Source of the DNA: Thermogutta terrifontis | Lineage (GTDB): Bacteria > Planctomycetota > Planctomycetia > Pirellulales > Thermoguttaceae | Reading direction: 5' to 3' | NCBI RefSeq assembly: GCF_002277955.1 | Contig: NZ_CP018477.1 | Location: forward strand, 2,687,206-2,751,205 | DNA length: 64,000 nucleotides | Shown here: positions 27,079 to 35,907 of the stretch, in pieces | How the letters are laid out: each line of letters starts with the position of its first letter | How positions within the stretch are numbered: position 1 is the stretch's first letter | The notes under the pieces: generated by a model | Told to the model about the DNA's origin: nothing | What the model saw: only the letters and a program-made list of their open reading frames with translations | Database searches by the model: none | Position numbers and translations under genes: made by a program

Positions 27079-28935
27079 TCACCCCGGGTGGGATTGGCCA
27101 TCAGCCGAAGCCGCTGCTGCTGGTGGCTGAGGCGAAGACGGATCCTTCCCCGGGCAGACCAGGGCGATGACTGTGTCGCCGGGCCGGATGTCTGCCAGCG
27201 GAGCATCTGTAACCACGAAAACAACGCCCCCAGTTCGTAGCACAAAGAGAGGATAGGCTTTGTCGCCGTATAACTCTCTGTACTGGGCAAAGTCAAATTC
27301 CTTCGTGATTTTCGTGCTTTTAAACCGCCCACCCTGGTAAAAAATTTCAGTTATCCTCGAATAGGTCAGGTCTTTTCCGAACAGCAGCCGTCCCCTGTGC
27401 TCAGGCGACACAGGATCGCGAGGCTTTTCTTTGGGGGGCAGCCAAGGGAGTTGATAGACTTCCTGCCTGCCAAAGTCCTCCGCGTAAATCATGCAGGCAA
27501 GCGAATTGACTTCGTTGTTGGATGTCACGGCCAGCATCCGCCCCAGTCCCATGTAGTCGATGCTCTCGCGTGTCACTTCCAAAAGGGCGTCGCCATGAAT
27601 GGCAGGAAGCCCAGCCAGGCGGGCGGCGGTGACATTCTGTCTATTGGAGTCCACCAGCACGACCCGGCAATCCTCTCGTTGAAGCACGACTGCAAGTTCA
27701 CGCACCCAGTGACTGGCGCCGACAAACAGGATGCCCTGAGGATTCTCCTGAATCAAATTGAGAAAGCGAGCCAGAGGCGCGGCTAACAATCCGTACACGG
27801 CGGCTGTTCCAAACACGACGAGCAATGTGACAGGCACGAGCTTTTCGGCCCCCTCATACTGGCCCTGGGAAAGAGCCAGCGCTGCTACCGAAGCGACCGC
27901 CATAGCCACAACGCCGCGTGGCGCCATCCCGGCGAGAAACAGTCGCTCATTCCAGCTCAACGTTTTTCCCCAGGTGGACACAAATACTGCTACTGGTCGA
28001 ATGACGAGGATGACCAGTAGTAAAAAGACAACGCTTTGCCATCCCAGTCCTTGAAGATACTCCCATCGGATGCGAGCTGCCAAAACGACGAACAAAACAG
28101 ATATGAGCAAAACGGTTAAGGCTTCCTTGAACTCCAGCAGTTGGCGGATGGCGAATTTGTGCTGATTGGCCACAACCATACCCGTGACGGTCACCGCCAA
28201 AAGGCCTGATTCACGACACAGGGTGTTCGCAAGGACAAATGCCACCAGCGTCAGCATAAGGGAAATCGGATTTGTCAAGAAGTCGGGAATCCAAAATCGG
28301 GCAAAGGCAGCCACCATCACGAAACCCATCGCAATCCCCACACCGAATCCTGCAAGCAGGGTTTGAATCAGTCGGATCCCGATTTCCCAGACGCCAGCAT
28401 TGAGGCTCTGCTGTTCGAGAGCTGCGAAAACAAGAACTGCCAGAATGGCCCCCAGTGGATCAATGAGGATGCCTTCCCACTTAAGAAGTGAGGCTACCCG
28501 ACCGCGCAGACGGAGGTGCCGCAGGATAGGACCAATCACGGTTGGGCCGGTGACGGTCAGAATGCATGCAAGAAGGGCCGCCACCGGCCAGGTCAACCCC
28601 AGAACCAATCGACCGGCAACGGCCAGAAGTCCCCATGTGACGGCCGCTCCAATTGTCATCAAACGACCAAAGACCCCGCCAATTCCCCGGAGCTCGCGGA
28701 AACGCAGGTTGAGCCCTCCGTCAAAGAGGATCAATCCTACCGCGAGAGCGATGAACGGCCGGATCAATTCACCGAAGACCTCGTCGGGATGCAAGAGTCC
28801 CAGAACGGGGCCGGCAAGGGTCCCCAGACCAAGGAGCAAAACGATTGCAGGAATACGCAGCCGCCACGCCAACCATTGTCCCAAGCCGCCGAGAGCGACA
28901 ATCGTGGTTATTTCAACAATCGATTCGTCAGCCAA
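27079..28935 (-). CDS. Cation:proton antiporter (CPA family) with RCK/TrkA domains
   Basis: 618 residues. About twelve hydrophobic helices occupy residues 1-390 (FGELIRPFIALAVGLILFDGGLNL, ACILTVTGPTVIGPILR, WEGILIDPLGAILAVLVF). A cytosolic Rossmann-like domain follows (ILFVGASHWVRELAVVLQREDCRVVLVDSNRQN), then a TrkA-C-like end (FVLRTGGVVFVVTDAPLADIRPGDTVIALV). The nucleotide loop is GASHWV rather than GxGxxG, so binding may be altered. I chose TTG 28935 because AGGAAG lies 7 nt upstream. The frame is open to GTG 28977, which has no ribosome site. It likely exchanges Na+ or K+ for H+. Confidence 0.85.
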   Translation of the reverse strand: MADESIVEITTIVALGGLGQWLAWRLRIPAIVLLLGLGTLAGPVLGLLHPDEVFGELIRPFIALAVGLILFDGGLNLRFRELRGIGGVFGRLMTIGAAVTWGLLAVAGRLVLGLTWPVAALLACILTVTGPTVIGPILRHLRLRGRVASLLKWEGILIDPLGAILAVLVFAALEQQSLNAGVWEIGIRLIQTLLAGFGVGIAMGFVMVAAFARFWIPDFLTNPISLMLTLVAFVLANTLCRESGLLAVTVTGMVVANQHKFAIRQLLEFKEALTVLLISVLFVVLAARIRWEYLQGLGWQSVVFLLLVILVIRPVAVFVSTWGKTLSWNERLFLAGMAPRGVVAMAVASVAALALSQGQYEGAEKLVPVTLLVVFGTAAVYGLLAAPLARFLNLIQENPQGILFVGASHWVRELAVVLQREDCRVVLVDSNRQNVTAARLAGLPAIHGDALLEVTRESIDYMGLGRMLAVTSNNEVNSLACMIYAEDFGRQEVYQLPWLPPKEKPRDPVSPEHRGRLLFGKDLTYSRITEIFYQGGRFKSTKITKEFDFAQYRELYGDKAYPLFVLRTGGVVFVVTDAPLADIRPGDTVIALVCPGKDPSSPQPPAAAASADGQSHPG

Positions 28936-29229
28936 CGGTTGCTTCCTTTCTAAATGGCAAGGGATAGTTGAAAACACATACTCGATGGCGGCCTCCCCCT
29001 GCTCTGTAGGATTATTCTAGATTCAGCTTTTCAAGCGCTTCCTGGTTGGCAGATCGCATGACAAAAGCAAACGCTGGAGCGTTGTCCGAACGGTTCTCCC
29101 GGACGGATCACCAAACCTAAATACCCAATCTTGTCTGCTTGCGGAAAAACCGCTCGATACCAAACCAATATCACCGGCCTGACAGTCGCAATTCAAAAAC
29201 GCTGCCGTGGCTTGTGCTGGCAAGGTCGT

Positions 29230-30678
29230 TCACTTCGGCTCAAATCCCGGTCGGATTGTGCCATCATAGTCGATGAGGGGACGAGGATTAGCAACCCGCC
29301 CCAGCGGACGGCAACCGGGTCCTATCCCGTCACGGCCAAGGTCCTGATCCATTTCGGCCATCAGTTTTTCCAGCCTGGCGACGATCTCGGGATGTTCGGC
29401 TGCCACGTTGCGAGACTCGCCGATGTCTTCTCGCAGGTTATAGAGTTCGGGCTTGCCCTTTGCATTAGGTGCGACCCGCAACTTCCAGTCGCCATGACGA
29501 ACACCTTCCAGGACCAGTCCCCTGAAATAGTAGAATGTCTCGTGTGCCGGCCTTCCGTCTGCCTCGCCGGTCAAATGCGGCCAGATGTTGATTCCGTCTA
29601 ATCTGCGGTCCTGTGGAAGCGGAACACCGGCCAGGTAGGCGAACGTGGGCAGAACGTCGAACATGCCCACAATCACGTCTGTGCTCGTTCCTGGCGGAAT
29701 TTGGCCCGGCCACCAGGCAATCGCCGGAACTCGAATTCCGCCCTCCCAGGTGCTTCCTTTAAATCCACGTAAGGGACGATTCACGGCCCGTTGCGTGCCA
29801 CCATTGTCACTTACCAACAGGACAAGGGTTTTTCGATCCAGCCCGGTTTCCCGAAGCGTGTCGAGCACCTGTCCCACGCTCCAGTCCACTTCCTCAACCC
29901 AGTCCGAGTAAATCCCGTGCGGCGAGCGTCCCGCCCATTTTTTGCCTGGGTAGATCGGAAAGTGCACGGCGTTGTGAGCAAGGTACAGGAAAAACGGTCG
30001 GTCCTGATTGTCACGAATGAATCTTACCGCCTCCTTGGTGTACAGCTCCACGAGGGCCTGCTGATCGTCAGGCAGCACACGTTTGATCACCGTGTTGTTC
30101 CGCATGAGTGGCAGGGGAGGTTGTCCCTTTTGGCCAGGGCGAGGTTTGGGAAGCGGCTCGCCGAGGCTGCTCTTCACCCCATCTTCCGCGGGTCCCATGT
30201 CATTGGAATACGGGAGTCCAAAATACTCATCGAACCCTTGCTGGAGCGGCAAAAATTCCGGTTGATCTCCGAGATGTCACTTGCCGATCAGAGCCGTTCT
30301 GTAACCAGCAGATTTGAGGAGTTCGGCAACGGTTACTTCTTCTGGTGCCAAACCCACTGGGTCGGCCGGAAAGAGCACATGGGGAATAGGCAGAGCACGT
30401 TTCGCATAACTCCCCGTCATCAGGGCAGCGCGTGATGGAGAGCACACAGGCGCGGCATAAAATGAGGTGAGTTTACGGCCTTCCGCGGCCATCCGGTCAA
30501 GATGAGGGGTTCGATTGATCTCCGATCCGAATGGCCCAATGTCTGCATAACCCAGGTCGTCGATGTTGATAACGATGAAGTTGGGCCGTTCTGGACGCCC
30601 TTGTTCGCTCGCTGCGGCGAGCAACGAGTTGGCGACAAACGCGAAGCAGCTAGCCCAGAGCAGTAAACGTTGGTACAT
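29230..30678 (-). pseudogene. Sulfatase gene interrupted by an in-frame TGA at the KWHLG motif
   Basis: Full-length (482 codons) formylglycine-type sulfatase with a signal peptide and a GGGAGG ribosome site before ATG 30678. The N-terminal metal motif is PNFIVINIDDLGYADIG, and the Cys to be converted to formylglycine is Cys79 in CSPSR. Codon 134 (30279-30277) is TGA and sits exactly where family members have Trp in GK-W-HLG. Reading continues in the same frame as HLGDQPEFLPLQQGFDEYFGLPYSNDMG through LAHNAVHFPIYPGKKWAG and SDNGGTQ to a normal C-terminus. A single TGG to TGA change explains it: pseudogene, readthrough or sequence error. Other genes here use TGA as stop. Confidence 0.85.
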
Positions 30679-30908
30679 CGGTAAGCCTCCCACTAGATAA
30701 ACGTTCGCACGACCCTTTATTTTGGAACCCCATTCTGAGGCACAATTTGGTTTTGGACAACCCTGTCCGTTGACGCCTCTCCATGTCAAGGCGGGCTTCC
30801 CCCACAAGTATAATGGTTGAATGGACGCCTGGGAAACGCAAACGTTTCGCTCTGAATGCTGCAATTATGGCAATTTTAGGCCAAGAATAAAGGGACTCTC
30901 GTTAATAC

Positions 30909-31529
30909 ATGACTGACTCACATCGCCGAGAGCTTGTCCTGGCAAGTCAATCTCCGCGCAGAAGAGAACTGCTAGAGCAATTGGGCATCCCCTTCCGTGT
31001 TGTTCCACCCGACGACTCTGCCGAGTGCGGCATTTGCAGCGGCGAAAATCCCGCCCAATTTGCCGCCAGAATGGCATTTCAGAAGGCCCGGAATGTTGCC
31101 CAGAAGGTAGGACGTGGCTTAATCCTCGGATGCGATACCGTGGTGGAATGTAAGGGGCAACTTGTTGGAAAACCCCGTGACATGGACCATGCCCGAGAGA
31201 TATTGCATCTGCTGCGGGGCACCGAGCATCGTGTGTTCACGGGAGTATGTCTCTGGGATTATCCGGATTGTTCCCCTGACATCCGCGTGGCCTGCACCCG
31301 GCTTATGATGGATTTCATCCCGGATGACGCGATTGAAGAATACCTGCGGACCGGTTTGTGGGAGGGAAAAGCGGGGGCCTTCGGGTACCAGGACCGCTTG
31401 GGATGGCTGAAAATCCTTGAGGGAAGTGAGAGTAATGTCGTGGGGCTGCCGCTCGAACTTCTCCAAGAAATGCTCGCGGCGGTGGAAGAAACGGGAAAAC
31501 AAAGATCCCCGGGTGCACCTGATAACTAG
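30909..31529 (+). CDS. maf: Maf-family nucleotide pyrophosphatase
   Basis: 206 residues. The family opening LVLASQSPRRRELLEQLG is present. It is followed by FQKARNVAQKVGRGLILGCDTVVECKGQLVGKP, containing the catalytic Asp in CDTVV, then REILHLLRGTEHRVFTGV and the closing EGKAGAFGYQDRLGWLKILEGSESNVVGLPLELL. Maf proteins hydrolyse non-canonical or surplus nucleotides (dTTP/UTP, m7GTP or CTP) in the cytoplasm. Subclass cannot be fixed by eye. It starts 230 nt from the divergent sulfatase gene; the ribosome site is weak. Confidence 0.93.
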   Translation: MTDSHRRELVLASQSPRRRELLEQLGIPFRVVPPDDSAECGICSGENPAQFAARMAFQKARNVAQKVGRGLILGCDTVVECKGQLVGKPRDMDHAREILHLLRGTEHRVFTGVCLWDYPDCSPDIRVACTRLMMDFIPDDAIEEYLRTGLWEGKAGAFGYQDRLGWLKILEGSESNVVGLPLELLQEMLAAVEETGKQRSPGAPDN

Positions 31530-32608: not shown

Positions 32609-33739
32609 CTAATAAGGCTGAAAAGGAACTTCCGTGTCGGAGAAAAACACGCAGTCCGGTTCGGGGGCGAGATAATCTCCGGTCACCGCATACGACCGAG
32701 CCCTGCTGCCGCCACACACGTAGCGGTACCGACAAACGCCGCACTTTCCGCCAAGCAGATTCGGATTGCGGAGCGCCCGAAAGACCTCGTGCTCCTGGTA
32801 CGTCTTGACAATCGAGTCTTTGGGGAAACGCCCGCACTGGATAGGCAAGAAACCGGCAGGGTAAATCTCTCCCGTATGGCCCACAAACATGATTCCTTTG
32901 CCATCGCCGACACCTAGCGTAAGGCGTTTCGCCAGTTGAACTGCCCTGGGTGAAACCTTCTCCTCCGGGAGGTGGCGCAGCTCTTCCAGAACGAACCGGC
33001 GGTAATGCGGTGCCTCCGTGGTCTTAATCGCATACGGGCGAGTCTGAGCCTGTTCCCACAGTATTTTGAACACCTGTTCGTATTCCTCTGGTGCAATCCG
33101 CTGTTCAAACGCGCCACGGCCGACAGGAACCAGGAAAAACACAGACCACATGTGGATTCCCTGGTCATTCAGCAACTCGGCCATCGCCTCCACCTGGCCG
33201 ACGTTTCGCTTGGTGATCGTGGTGTTAACCTGGAGGTAGAATCCCAAATCTCGCCCGGCCGCCAGAATCTCCATCGTGCGGTCAAAACTACCCTGCCAGC
33301 CGCGAAAGGCATCGTGAGTCGCCGCGTCGGCACCGTCCAGACTCACTCCCAGTGCCGTCACCCCAGCATCTTTTGCTCGTTTCAGAGCACTGGCAGTTGC
33401 TAGCGGAGTTGCCGACGGCGTCAAAGCCACATTGAGACCGCACTCCTTGGCGAAGGCGATCAGGTCAAAGATGTCGGGACGCTTAAGCGGGTCGCCTCCA
33501 GTGAAGACGATGTTCGGCTTTTTAGGAAACAGCGAGGCTTCCCGAATGAGGGCCTGCGCCTCGTCAGAAGACAGCTCCTCGGGATGCGCGGATGGCTGTG
33601 CCGAGGCTCGGCAGTGCTTGCACACCAGGTCGCAAGCCTGGGTAACTTCATAGTAGAGCATGAGCGGGCTGTGCTGGATATCTTTCCAGGAATAGTCCGC
33701 GAATCGCTGTGTAAACTGGGGGGCTGTAGATTGGGTCAT
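32609..33739 (-). CDS. Radical SAM/SPASM protein, TIGR04053-like
   Basis: 376 residues from ATG 33739, with GGAAG 7 nt upstream; the frame is open to 33766. The radical SAM cluster Cys36-x3-Cys40-x2-Cys43 lies in CDLVCKHC. SAM-binding GGDP occurs in NIVFTGGDPLKRPDIFDLI, then TPSATPLAT and VSLDGADAATHDAFRG, an exact echo of the TIGR04053 pattern. A SPASM-type domain with extra Cys closes it (GGKCGVCRYRYVCGGSRARSYAV...PDC). Related enzymes modify peptides or heme precursors (AhbD/NirJ). No precursor peptide or heme gene lies next to it, so the substrate is open. Confidence 0.88.
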   Translation of the reverse strand: MTQSTAPQFTQRFADYSWKDIQHSPLMLYYEVTQACDLVCKHCRASAQPSAHPEELSSDEAQALIREASLFPKKPNIVFTGGDPLKRPDIFDLIAFAKECGLNVALTPSATPLATASALKRAKDAGVTALGVSLDGADAATHDAFRGWQGSFDRTMEILAAGRDLGFYLQVNTTITKRNVGQVEAMAELLNDQGIHMWSVFFLVPVGRGAFEQRIAPEEYEQVFKILWEQAQTRPYAIKTTEAPHYRRFVLEELRHLPEEKVSPRAVQLAKRLTLGVGDGKGIMFVGHTGEIYPAGFLPIQCGRFPKDSIVKTYQEHEVFRALRNPNLLGGKCGVCRYRYVCGGSRARSYAVTGDYLAPEPDCVFFSDTEVPFQPY

Positions 33740-34149
33740 TGCGTAACTTCCGAACCCAAAACGCAATATGGGCCACAGAGTTGGGTAGTTCCTTTACGGA
33801 ATTTTAGCTGCCGTCCTCGAATCGGAAAGTCGATTTTCTCAGGCAAACCAATGTGTCGCAAAGACTAAAGCGAGTCGGAACAGAGCGTTTGTTTCCTTTG
33901 CTATTTCCGGCAGGAGAGGTTCCGGCCGCGTCGGGTGCGCCCATTGCCTTCCCAGTACCATCCAAGGTTCCTTTACGCAATAATATGACCGGTCCTGAAA
34001 CATGACGCGATGCCGCGTCCGTTGAGGGGGTCCATAACTTCGTGCGCTCGGATCGCTTCAGTGCGGACCGTTGCGAAACAGTCTCGCGACAGAAGTAGGA
34101 TCCGCGCCAGGTTACTTGAGTGCGAAGGTATTCTTTGGGGAGGTGGACC
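33740..34149. promoter_or_regulatory. Divergent intergenic region
   Basis: 410 bases between the radical SAM gene (minus) and the DUF4091 gene (plus). Both promoters must lie here. No operator-like dyad or RNA structure stood out. Confidence 0.35.
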
Positions 34150-35907
34150 ATGAAAGCACATCAATCTCGTCGCTGGATTGTCAGTTGCTCGCCAACCTGC
34201 GTGGCGATCTTGAGTAGTTTCGTGTGGATTACACTCTATGGATCACTCCTGGCGGAACTAACTGTTTGGGTGGAAACGGCGACGCGATGCTTGTGCCGCG
34301 AGGACCTGCCCCCGCAACGTCCCGCGCGTCACATCGAGGTGGCCGCGGCCAGAAATGAGTGGGTTGGTTTTCAGGTCTTCATGCGAAGTTCCCAGCCGGT
34401 TCCGCAAATCGAACTTGTTATTACGGCCCCGAAAGGACCTCAGGACGCGACGATAACCCCGTCGAATTTTCGAGTATATCGCGAGCATCAAATCCATATC
34501 GTCAACGGGACACATCGCAACGAGGCCTTTCGCCCCGGTTGGTATCCCGATCCCCTTATCCCGAGCCGCGATCCCGTAAAGGACGTTCCACTTCGGGGTA
34601 AGTACCAGGCCTTTCCTTTTGATTTACCCGCTGACGAAACACACGGATTCTATGTGGATCTCTTTATCCCTCCAGGAACGCCGCCCGGAAAATACGCGGG
34701 AAAAGTTACGGTCCGGGGCAGCGGCGTTAACCAAGTTGACATTCCTTTGTCAATAGAGGTCTGGGACTTCACCCTTCCCAGTACACCGGCGCTCGTGACA
34801 GCGTTCGGCTCACCGTCGCAGCGAATGCGTTCTTACTATGCCAAGCGTGCCCGATCAGGGAAGGAGTCACCACCGGAAAATTGGGAAGAAGTGGACCGTC
34901 AATGTGCCGCGCTGGTCAGCGAACATCGTATGAATGCTTATCCACCGTCAGAGTGGCTCGCACTGCAACGAAATGACAAGGGGTACCAGTTGCCTGATGA
35001 GAGCATCGCCCAGCTTAGGGAATGGATTGATCGTTATCACGTCAACGCGGTTCAAATTCCTTCGCCGGTGGGCAGGGTCAAAGATCCCGCGGAGTCGCCG
35101 GAGGATTTAAGGACGTGGCTGGCAGCCTGGGACAAAGCCATCACAGAAATCGCACGCCCTCACGTAATCTTCTACATCTACCTCAAAGATGAACCCAATG
35201 ACCCGGAGGCGTACGAGTTCGTTCGTCACTGGGGCAAGCCGATTCGTGCGGCGCAGACCAAAGTGAAGGTGCTTGTCGTGGAACAAACTCTGACACAGGA
35301 CCCGGCCTGGGGCGATCTTTATGGTGCCGTCGATATATGGTGTTCCCTGTTTCCGCTTTACGATGAAGCGACCGCCAAGCAGCGGCAAGCGCTCGGGGAG
35401 ATTATGTGGGCATACACGGCGCTTTGCCAGGGAAAGCGAAAATCGCCCTGGTGGCACATCGACTATCCACTCCTCCATTATCGTGTGCCGTCCTGGATTT
35501 CATGGCGATTCGGAATCACAGGATTGCTTTACTGGGGCGGGATGAGTTATTGGGATCAGGTGGAGGATCCTTGGACGGACGCCAACACATACAGACCTGG
35601 TCCTGCCGATCGACCGTTAACCTTCAACGGCGAAGGAACACTCGTGTATCCTGCCAGACCGTGCGGCTATGAAGGTATCGTCCCCTCCTTGCGACTAAAG
35701 GCGCTGCGAGACTCAATTGAGGATTACGAGTATTTGGAGATCTTACGCCGGGCGGGTAAGGCCGACCTTGCTCAACGTCTTGTTCTGTCGCTGACTCCCA
35801 GTTGGTTCGAGTGGTCGGAAACACCGGAGGATTATGAAGAGGCTCGGCGAAAACTCGCGGAGTTGATTCTCACGTTGCCGCCTGAAACCCGCAATGCCAC
35901 CCGGTGA
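34150..35907 (+). CDS. Secreted DUF4091 / GH123-like glycan protein
   Basis: 585 residues from ATG 34150, with GGGGAGGTGG just upstream; the frame is open to 34120. A signal peptide (CVAILSSFVWITLYGSLLAE) is followed by a beta-sandwich (VETATRCLCREDLPP...ARNEWVGFQVFM). A TIM-barrel-like region of the DUF4091 type then follows, with motif IFYIYLKDEPNDPEAYEFVRHWG. The DEPN segment is where GH123-type beta-N-acetylgalactosaminidases carry the catalytic Asp-Glu pair. The C-terminus (LRLKALRDSIEDYEYLEILR) is the DUF4091 signature. Probably hydrolyses an N-acetylhexosamine-containing glycan outside the cell. Confidence 0.85.
   Translation: MKAHQSRRWIVSCSPTCVAILSSFVWITLYGSLLAELTVWVETATRCLCREDLPPQRPARHIEVAAARNEWVGFQVFMRSSQPVPQIELVITAPKGPQDATITPSNFRVYREHQIHIVNGTHRNEAFRPGWYPDPLIPSRDPVKDVPLRGKYQAFPFDLPADETHGFYVDLFIPPGTPPGKYAGKVTVRGSGVNQVDIPLSIEVWDFTLPSTPALVTAFGSPSQRMRSYYAKRARSGKESPPENWEEVDRQCAALVSEHRMNAYPPSEWLALQRNDKGYQLPDESIAQLREWIDRYHVNAVQIPSPVGRVKDPAESPEDLRTWLAAWDKAITEIARPHVIFYIYLKDEPNDPEAYEFVRHWGKPIRAAQTKVKVLVVEQTLTQDPAWGDLYGAVDIWCSLFPLYDEATAKQRQALGEIMWAYTALCQGKRKSPWWHIDYPLLHYRVPSWISWRFGITGLLYWGGMSYWDQVEDPWTDANTYRPGPADRPLTFNGEGTLVYPARPCGYEGIVPSLRLKALRDSIEDYEYLEILRRAGKADLAQRLVLSLTPSWFEWSETPEDYEEARRKLAELILTLPPETRNATR

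Follow-up and report, generated by a model that had tools for sequence, protein, structure and literature searches.

In the thermophilic planctomycete Thermogutta terrifontis, a type I sulfatase gene has very probably (roughly 84%) lost its function through one nonsense mutation, of very recent origin, in the tryptophan codon of its GKWHLG motif. This reading is drawn from the sequence of the locus and from comparison with its relatives, and the change is most likely an ordinary chance mutation, not a new reading of the genetic code. The locus lies within a stretch of 64,000 nucleotides, here called the window, to which all coordinates refer unless they are given as genome positions. The genome of strain R1 (CP018477; PMC5673643) forms a single contig of 4,810,751 bp.

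Structure of the Interrupted Sulfatase Frame

The sulfatase frame occupies positions 29230–30678 of the minus strand and comprises 482 codons with codon 134 taken as Trp, an extent delimited by the open reading frame, the Pfam match and the intact copy in a sister genome. It contains one TGA, located at 30277–30279 (minus strand) in the context ATC GGC AAG TGA CAT CTC, which the sequence and the alignments to the sister and to outgroups place at the Trp of GKWHLG. As the initial annotation had stated, the frame is intact apart from this codon and remains open up to its own stop, a TGA at 29232–29230. Just 5' of the ATG, a Shine-Dalgarno-like GGAGG was noted by eye at 30686–30690 (minus strand), and it is present in the sister too. 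The part before the stop (30280–30678, minus strand) encodes 133 amino acids with a hydrophobic N-terminus, by eye an apparent signal peptide, and contains CSPSR at residues 79–83. The part after the stop (29233–30276, minus strand) comprises 348 codons.

The proposal that homology runs straight through the stop is borne out by the PF00884 profile, which spans residues 32–352 of the read-through protein (profile positions 1–301, E 3e-56). Both halves also match the family separately, the pre-stop part at profile positions 1–99 only and the post-stop part, searched as the piece 29233–30249, at positions 141–301 together with C-terminal domains. By sequence, arylsulfatase A is the closest relative of solved structure (1e2s, E 3.9e-73), and Trp134 aligns to the GKWHLG Trp of the human enzyme. 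All NCBIfam sulfatase models scored below their cut-offs, with choline-sulfatase highest (112.9 vs 433.45 bits), and at gathering thresholds Rfam gave no match in the window. The formylglycine motif of type I sulfatases is C-x-[PSA]-x-R, in which the first residue is Cys or Ser, and CSPSR agrees with it. The interrupted frame resembles type I sulfatases (PF00884) in its CSPSR with a modifiable Cys, in GKxHLG and DNGG, and in covering the family profile end to end if codon 134 is Trp; it differs from them in the stop at the GKWHLG Trp codon. The predicted product therefore ends at the Lys, and in translation with table 11 the GKxH motif is not intact, the protein ending after GK.

Termination at the codon-134 UGA is presumably efficient. 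Translation would begin normally and stop after 133 residues, giving a product that would retain Cys79, the Cys of CSPSR, which lies upstream of the stop as had been noted initially. Because the GKWHLG His would be missing from this product, along with the DNGG region and the C-terminal domain, it is expected to have no activity and to be degraded.

Comparison With the Sister Genome and Other Relatives

In the sister, a Thermogutta MAG (G002), the encoded protein is 95% identical, codon 134 is TGG and the stop is absent. The codons differ by a single base, in agreement with the proposed TGG-to-TGA change, and the protein alignment contains only one single-residue gap, near the N-terminus, which likewise agrees with the claim that no frameshift is involved. 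The flanks are collinear with the sister in two DNA blocks of 5.4 and 4.0 kb with 81% identity. They include a divergent gene for a Maf-like protein (30909–31529, plus strand; dN/dS 0.075) and a gene for a Na+/H+ exchanger with a TrkA_N domain (27079–28977, minus strand; dN/dS 0.081), both collinear in the sister. A GH123-like protein is encoded near the sulfatase at 34120–35907, is also collinear and has a dN/dS of 0.106. Furthermore, the window encodes a radical SAM/SPASM protein at 32609–33766 which matches TIGR04053 above its cut-off (427.5 vs 395 bits); the next best model is the heme b synthase AhbD, below cut-off, and no sulfatase-maturase model is found among the best 25 of its 44 matches.

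Both the sister and 18/18 aligned outgroups have Trp at codon 134, which upholds the initial description of this Trp as conserved. The outgroups were 20 loci taken from 79 other related loci; two of the 20 were excluded because the compared range contained a stop or a break of the frame. A motif scan that included the flanks identified GKWH in 80 of 80 related loci, one of which also has GKQH. When the position of the Trp codon was set to TGA or TAA in the exact pattern, no match was obtained in 391 other genomes of the phylum (392 drawn). With TGG or TAG at this position, 43 of 57 genomes drawn from the order were matched, and all 134 sites were TGG and none TAG; this TGG denominator was counted in the order draw (57 genomes), not in the phylum draw (392 genomes).

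A survey of the family recovered at least 140 matches (E <= 1e-60) in 41 of 61 genomes, with at most 26 first-look candidates scored per genome and the sister G002 outside the draw, and only the target has a mid-gene stop. Nine of these matches, the target included, were flagged as containing a stop. The other eight flags (five TGA, two TAG and one TAA) were realigned, which placed four of the stops at the C-terminal end and left four with a realigned stretch free of stops. Wider sulfatase decay in the genus was also considered, as two further sulfatases were flagged with an inner TAG, and was rejected when realignment gave no mid-gene stop: one TAG lies at the C-terminal end and the other outside the realigned stop-free stretch. 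None of the ten non-target flags is mid-gene, and a flag alone should therefore not be taken to mean a broken gene. A recurring stop at the GKWHLG Trp among relatives was likewise rejected, having been found in neither the phylum, the order nor the family survey. The initial annotation had recommended comparison with sister strains; the relatives compared here yield an intact TGG orthologue in the sister and no stop at this position in the others. Programmed readthrough is expected to leave the stop conserved among orthologues, and this stop is not conserved.

Age of the Stop and Selection

Compared with the sister, the 133 codons before the stop have a dN/dS of 0.052 (dS 0.87) and the 348 codons after it a dN/dS of 0.026 (dS 0.75). 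The Pfam-named neighbours range from 0.017 to 0.106, with GreA at 0.017 and the radical SAM protein at 0.062; open frames on other strands, either short or overlapping, had dN/dS values of 0.07–2.4 and were left out of this comparison. Eleven amino-acid differences follow the stop, and polarization with the 18 outgroups assigns six to the T. terrifontis lineage and four to the sister with one tie, some assignments depending on one or two outgroups. One change derived on the T. terrifontis lineage is Leu288, located just before DNGG, where the sister and 18/18 outgroups have Phe; it may be a faint hint of relaxed constraint.

Amino-acid counts limit unconstrained evolution to at most 3.0–3.5% of the T. 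terrifontis branch under a Poisson model that assumes branches of equal length. The 11 differences are underlain by 15 nonsynonymous base changes, for which the limit becomes 3.8% (split 9:6) or 5.2% (split 11:4), and in the extreme case in which all 15 fell on the T. terrifontis lineage the unconstrained share would be 2.9–8.0%. Given the low post-stop dN/dS and this small share, either the stop arose recently or full-length protein continues to be produced; the latter case would likewise give a low dN/dS. The locus has two properties of a recent nonsense pseudogene, namely an intact orthologue in a close relative and no long neutral decay after the stop.

Decoding of UGA in Thermogutta terrifontis

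TGA is the commonest stop codon, ending 91 of 162 long coding-like ORFs in a 464-kb sample (TAA 41, TAG 30), and RF2 is present, with prfB above cut-off. In a genome that recodes UGA the codon would be unused as a normal stop, which is not the case here. Editing of the UGA in RNA by TadA was considered as well; the motif of this enzyme is TACG, which is absent at codon 134.

Selenocysteine was rejected as an explanation. The genome contains no SelB match above cut-off and six below it; the best of these six, a frame of 401 aa within a cluster of tRNAs, was interpreted as EF-Tu. The tRNA-Sec model, with 150 of 774 candidates scored, gave two matches above its cut-off of 47 bits (49.9 and 49.1 bits), which ARAGORN identifies as tRNA-Ser (tga) and tRNA-Leu (taa). 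A suppressor or altered tRNA-Trp was rejected as well: the tRNA search found 46 tRNAs, equal to the published count (PMC5673643), and none has a UCA anticodon according to ARAGORN. Over 73 bases the tRNA-Trp (CCA) does not differ from its counterpart in the sister, and it has A9, G24 and a 5-bp anticodon stem. Reading of UGA by tRNA-Trp is described as promoted by A9C, by G24A (Hirsh) and by a 4-bp anticodon stem (PMC13092985), features which the tRNA-Trp of T. terrifontis therefore does not have. UGA-to-Trp decoding by a 4-bp-stem tRNA-Trp, as presented there (PMC13092985), would insert the residue expected at codon 134; the T. terrifontis tRNA differs in its 5-bp stem, A9 and G24, and the same tRNA-Trp occurs in the TGG-bearing sister. 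The search for a suppressor tRNA which had been suggested at the outset accordingly found neither a candidate nor any known suppressor feature.

Other Interrupted Genes in the Genome

PF00884 matches 43 times in the genome, some matches being pieces of one gene, and only the target has an inner stop. Among the matches listed, the closest paralogue has 51% identity and is intact. The motif expression recognizes 12 of the genome's 30 own sulfatase loci, 11 of them with Trp and one being the target. Two partial matches were observed as well, one at genome positions 2496165–2496473 covering the N-terminal part only (frame of 210 aa) and one at 3073086–3073643 covering the C-terminal part only (frame of 199 aa); both are possibly older gene remnants. 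For another family, PF01408, no inner stops were found among the matches listed from a total of 196 in four genomes of the genus.

Interruption by same-frame stops was surveyed in 464 kb, consisting of the window and 20 stretches of 20 kb, and the target is among 14 of 620 cases. Four of the 13 other stops, in which the next ATG or GTG follows at least 14 codons on, were checked, and no Pfam family extends across the stop; the remaining nine have a start codon within 7 codons. This survey is weak evidence because its sensitivity is modest. At a run of six T (near genome positions 2791593–2791599, within the region 2790500–2792700), the frame of a class V aminotransferase breaks into two that overlap, which may reflect a real frameshift, a slippage site or a leftover 454 homopolymer error.

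Alternative Explanations

A sequencing or assembly error, with a normal gene in the organism, would look like this locus, in which a single stop interrupts a gene under strong constraint, and the split aminotransferase frame of the same assembly may be a 454 homopolymer error that was left uncorrected. The change at codon 134, however, is a substitution outside any homopolymer, and the genome is reported to have been sequenced with 320x Illumina and 454 data, with base errors corrected by the Illumina reads (PMC5673643). On the strength of this published coverage, a base error is unlikely, though possible. Since the species is represented here by one strain, the TGA may be confined to this strain or have arisen in the laboratory, or it may be a base error. 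The same source indicates that RNA-seq of T. terrifontis exists, and the words “sulfatase” and “pseudogene” are absent from its main text (PMC5673643).

Low-level misreading of the stop by the normal tRNA-Trp (CCA), a near-cognate, would yield a little full-length sulfatase and restore the family residue. UGA followed by C is a weak termination context, and C does follow the codon-134 UGA; yet UGA-C also terminates 19 of the 91 ordinary TGA-ended ORFs in the 464-kb sample. UGA leakage with Trp insertion is stated for Escherichia coli and Salmonella, and 6% readthrough is cited for a Bacillus subtilis reporter (Belinky et al., 2021; PMC7918605). No specific signal is seen at the locus, however, as the 86 nt from the Lys codon before the UGA give no structured readthrough element, their folding being marginally weaker than the average of shuffled sequences (z +0.79). 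Basal leakage of this kind, possible as it is, would be common to any UGA and would be neither a special property of the locus nor an adaptation of this sulfatase gene, and as the explanation of the locus it is very unlikely. Even less credence is given to the idea that T. terrifontis reads UGA as Trp often enough for useful sulfatase, with the stop serving as a dial that lowers expression of the exported enzyme at high temperature. Selected and regulated recoding, by selenocysteine or a dedicated suppressor, is the least probable of all and hardly credible: its only favorable point is the conserved frame past the stop, and against it stand the lack of SelB above cut-off, the identity of the tRNA-Sec matches as tRNA-Ser and tRNA-Leu, the lack of a UCA anticodon, an unaltered tRNA-Trp and the lack of the codon-134 stop in relatives.

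Discussion

The initial annotation had left three options for the stop. The very recent pseudogene is the best fit, considering constraint almost to the present, the one-base difference and the fact that no stop at this codon was found in any other member. The naturally suppressed stop and the UGA readthrough site are without specific support from suppressor tRNA, SelB, fold or stop conservation, and RF2 is present. Bacterial genes are described as holding many in-frame stops of short persistence at the scale of polymorphism, and readthrough has been suggested as a short-term regulator (Belinky et al., 2021; PMC7918605). The locus resembles the young nonsense pseudogenes of that account in its single in-frame stop, in flanks under purifying selection and in being short-lived, consistent with mutations of polymorphism age; carbohydrate genes are among the commoner categories there. 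It differs in that the focus there is on stops shared between two or more species (Belinky et al., 2021; PMC7918605), whereas the stop described here was seen in a single genome. No published account of the interrupted locus was found in the literature searched on Thermogutta pseudogenes, sulfatases and in-frame stops.

Loss of this sulfatase is probably tolerated because dozens of other sulfatases are encoded, the closest at 51% identity among the matches listed, and redundancy is presumably the reason for this tolerance. The finding has little importance past annotation, where the appropriate label for the locus is a disrupted sulfatase, and neither a pair of proteins nor a recoded gene. It does provide a clean example that strong constraint after a stop can mean a young stop instead of readthrough.
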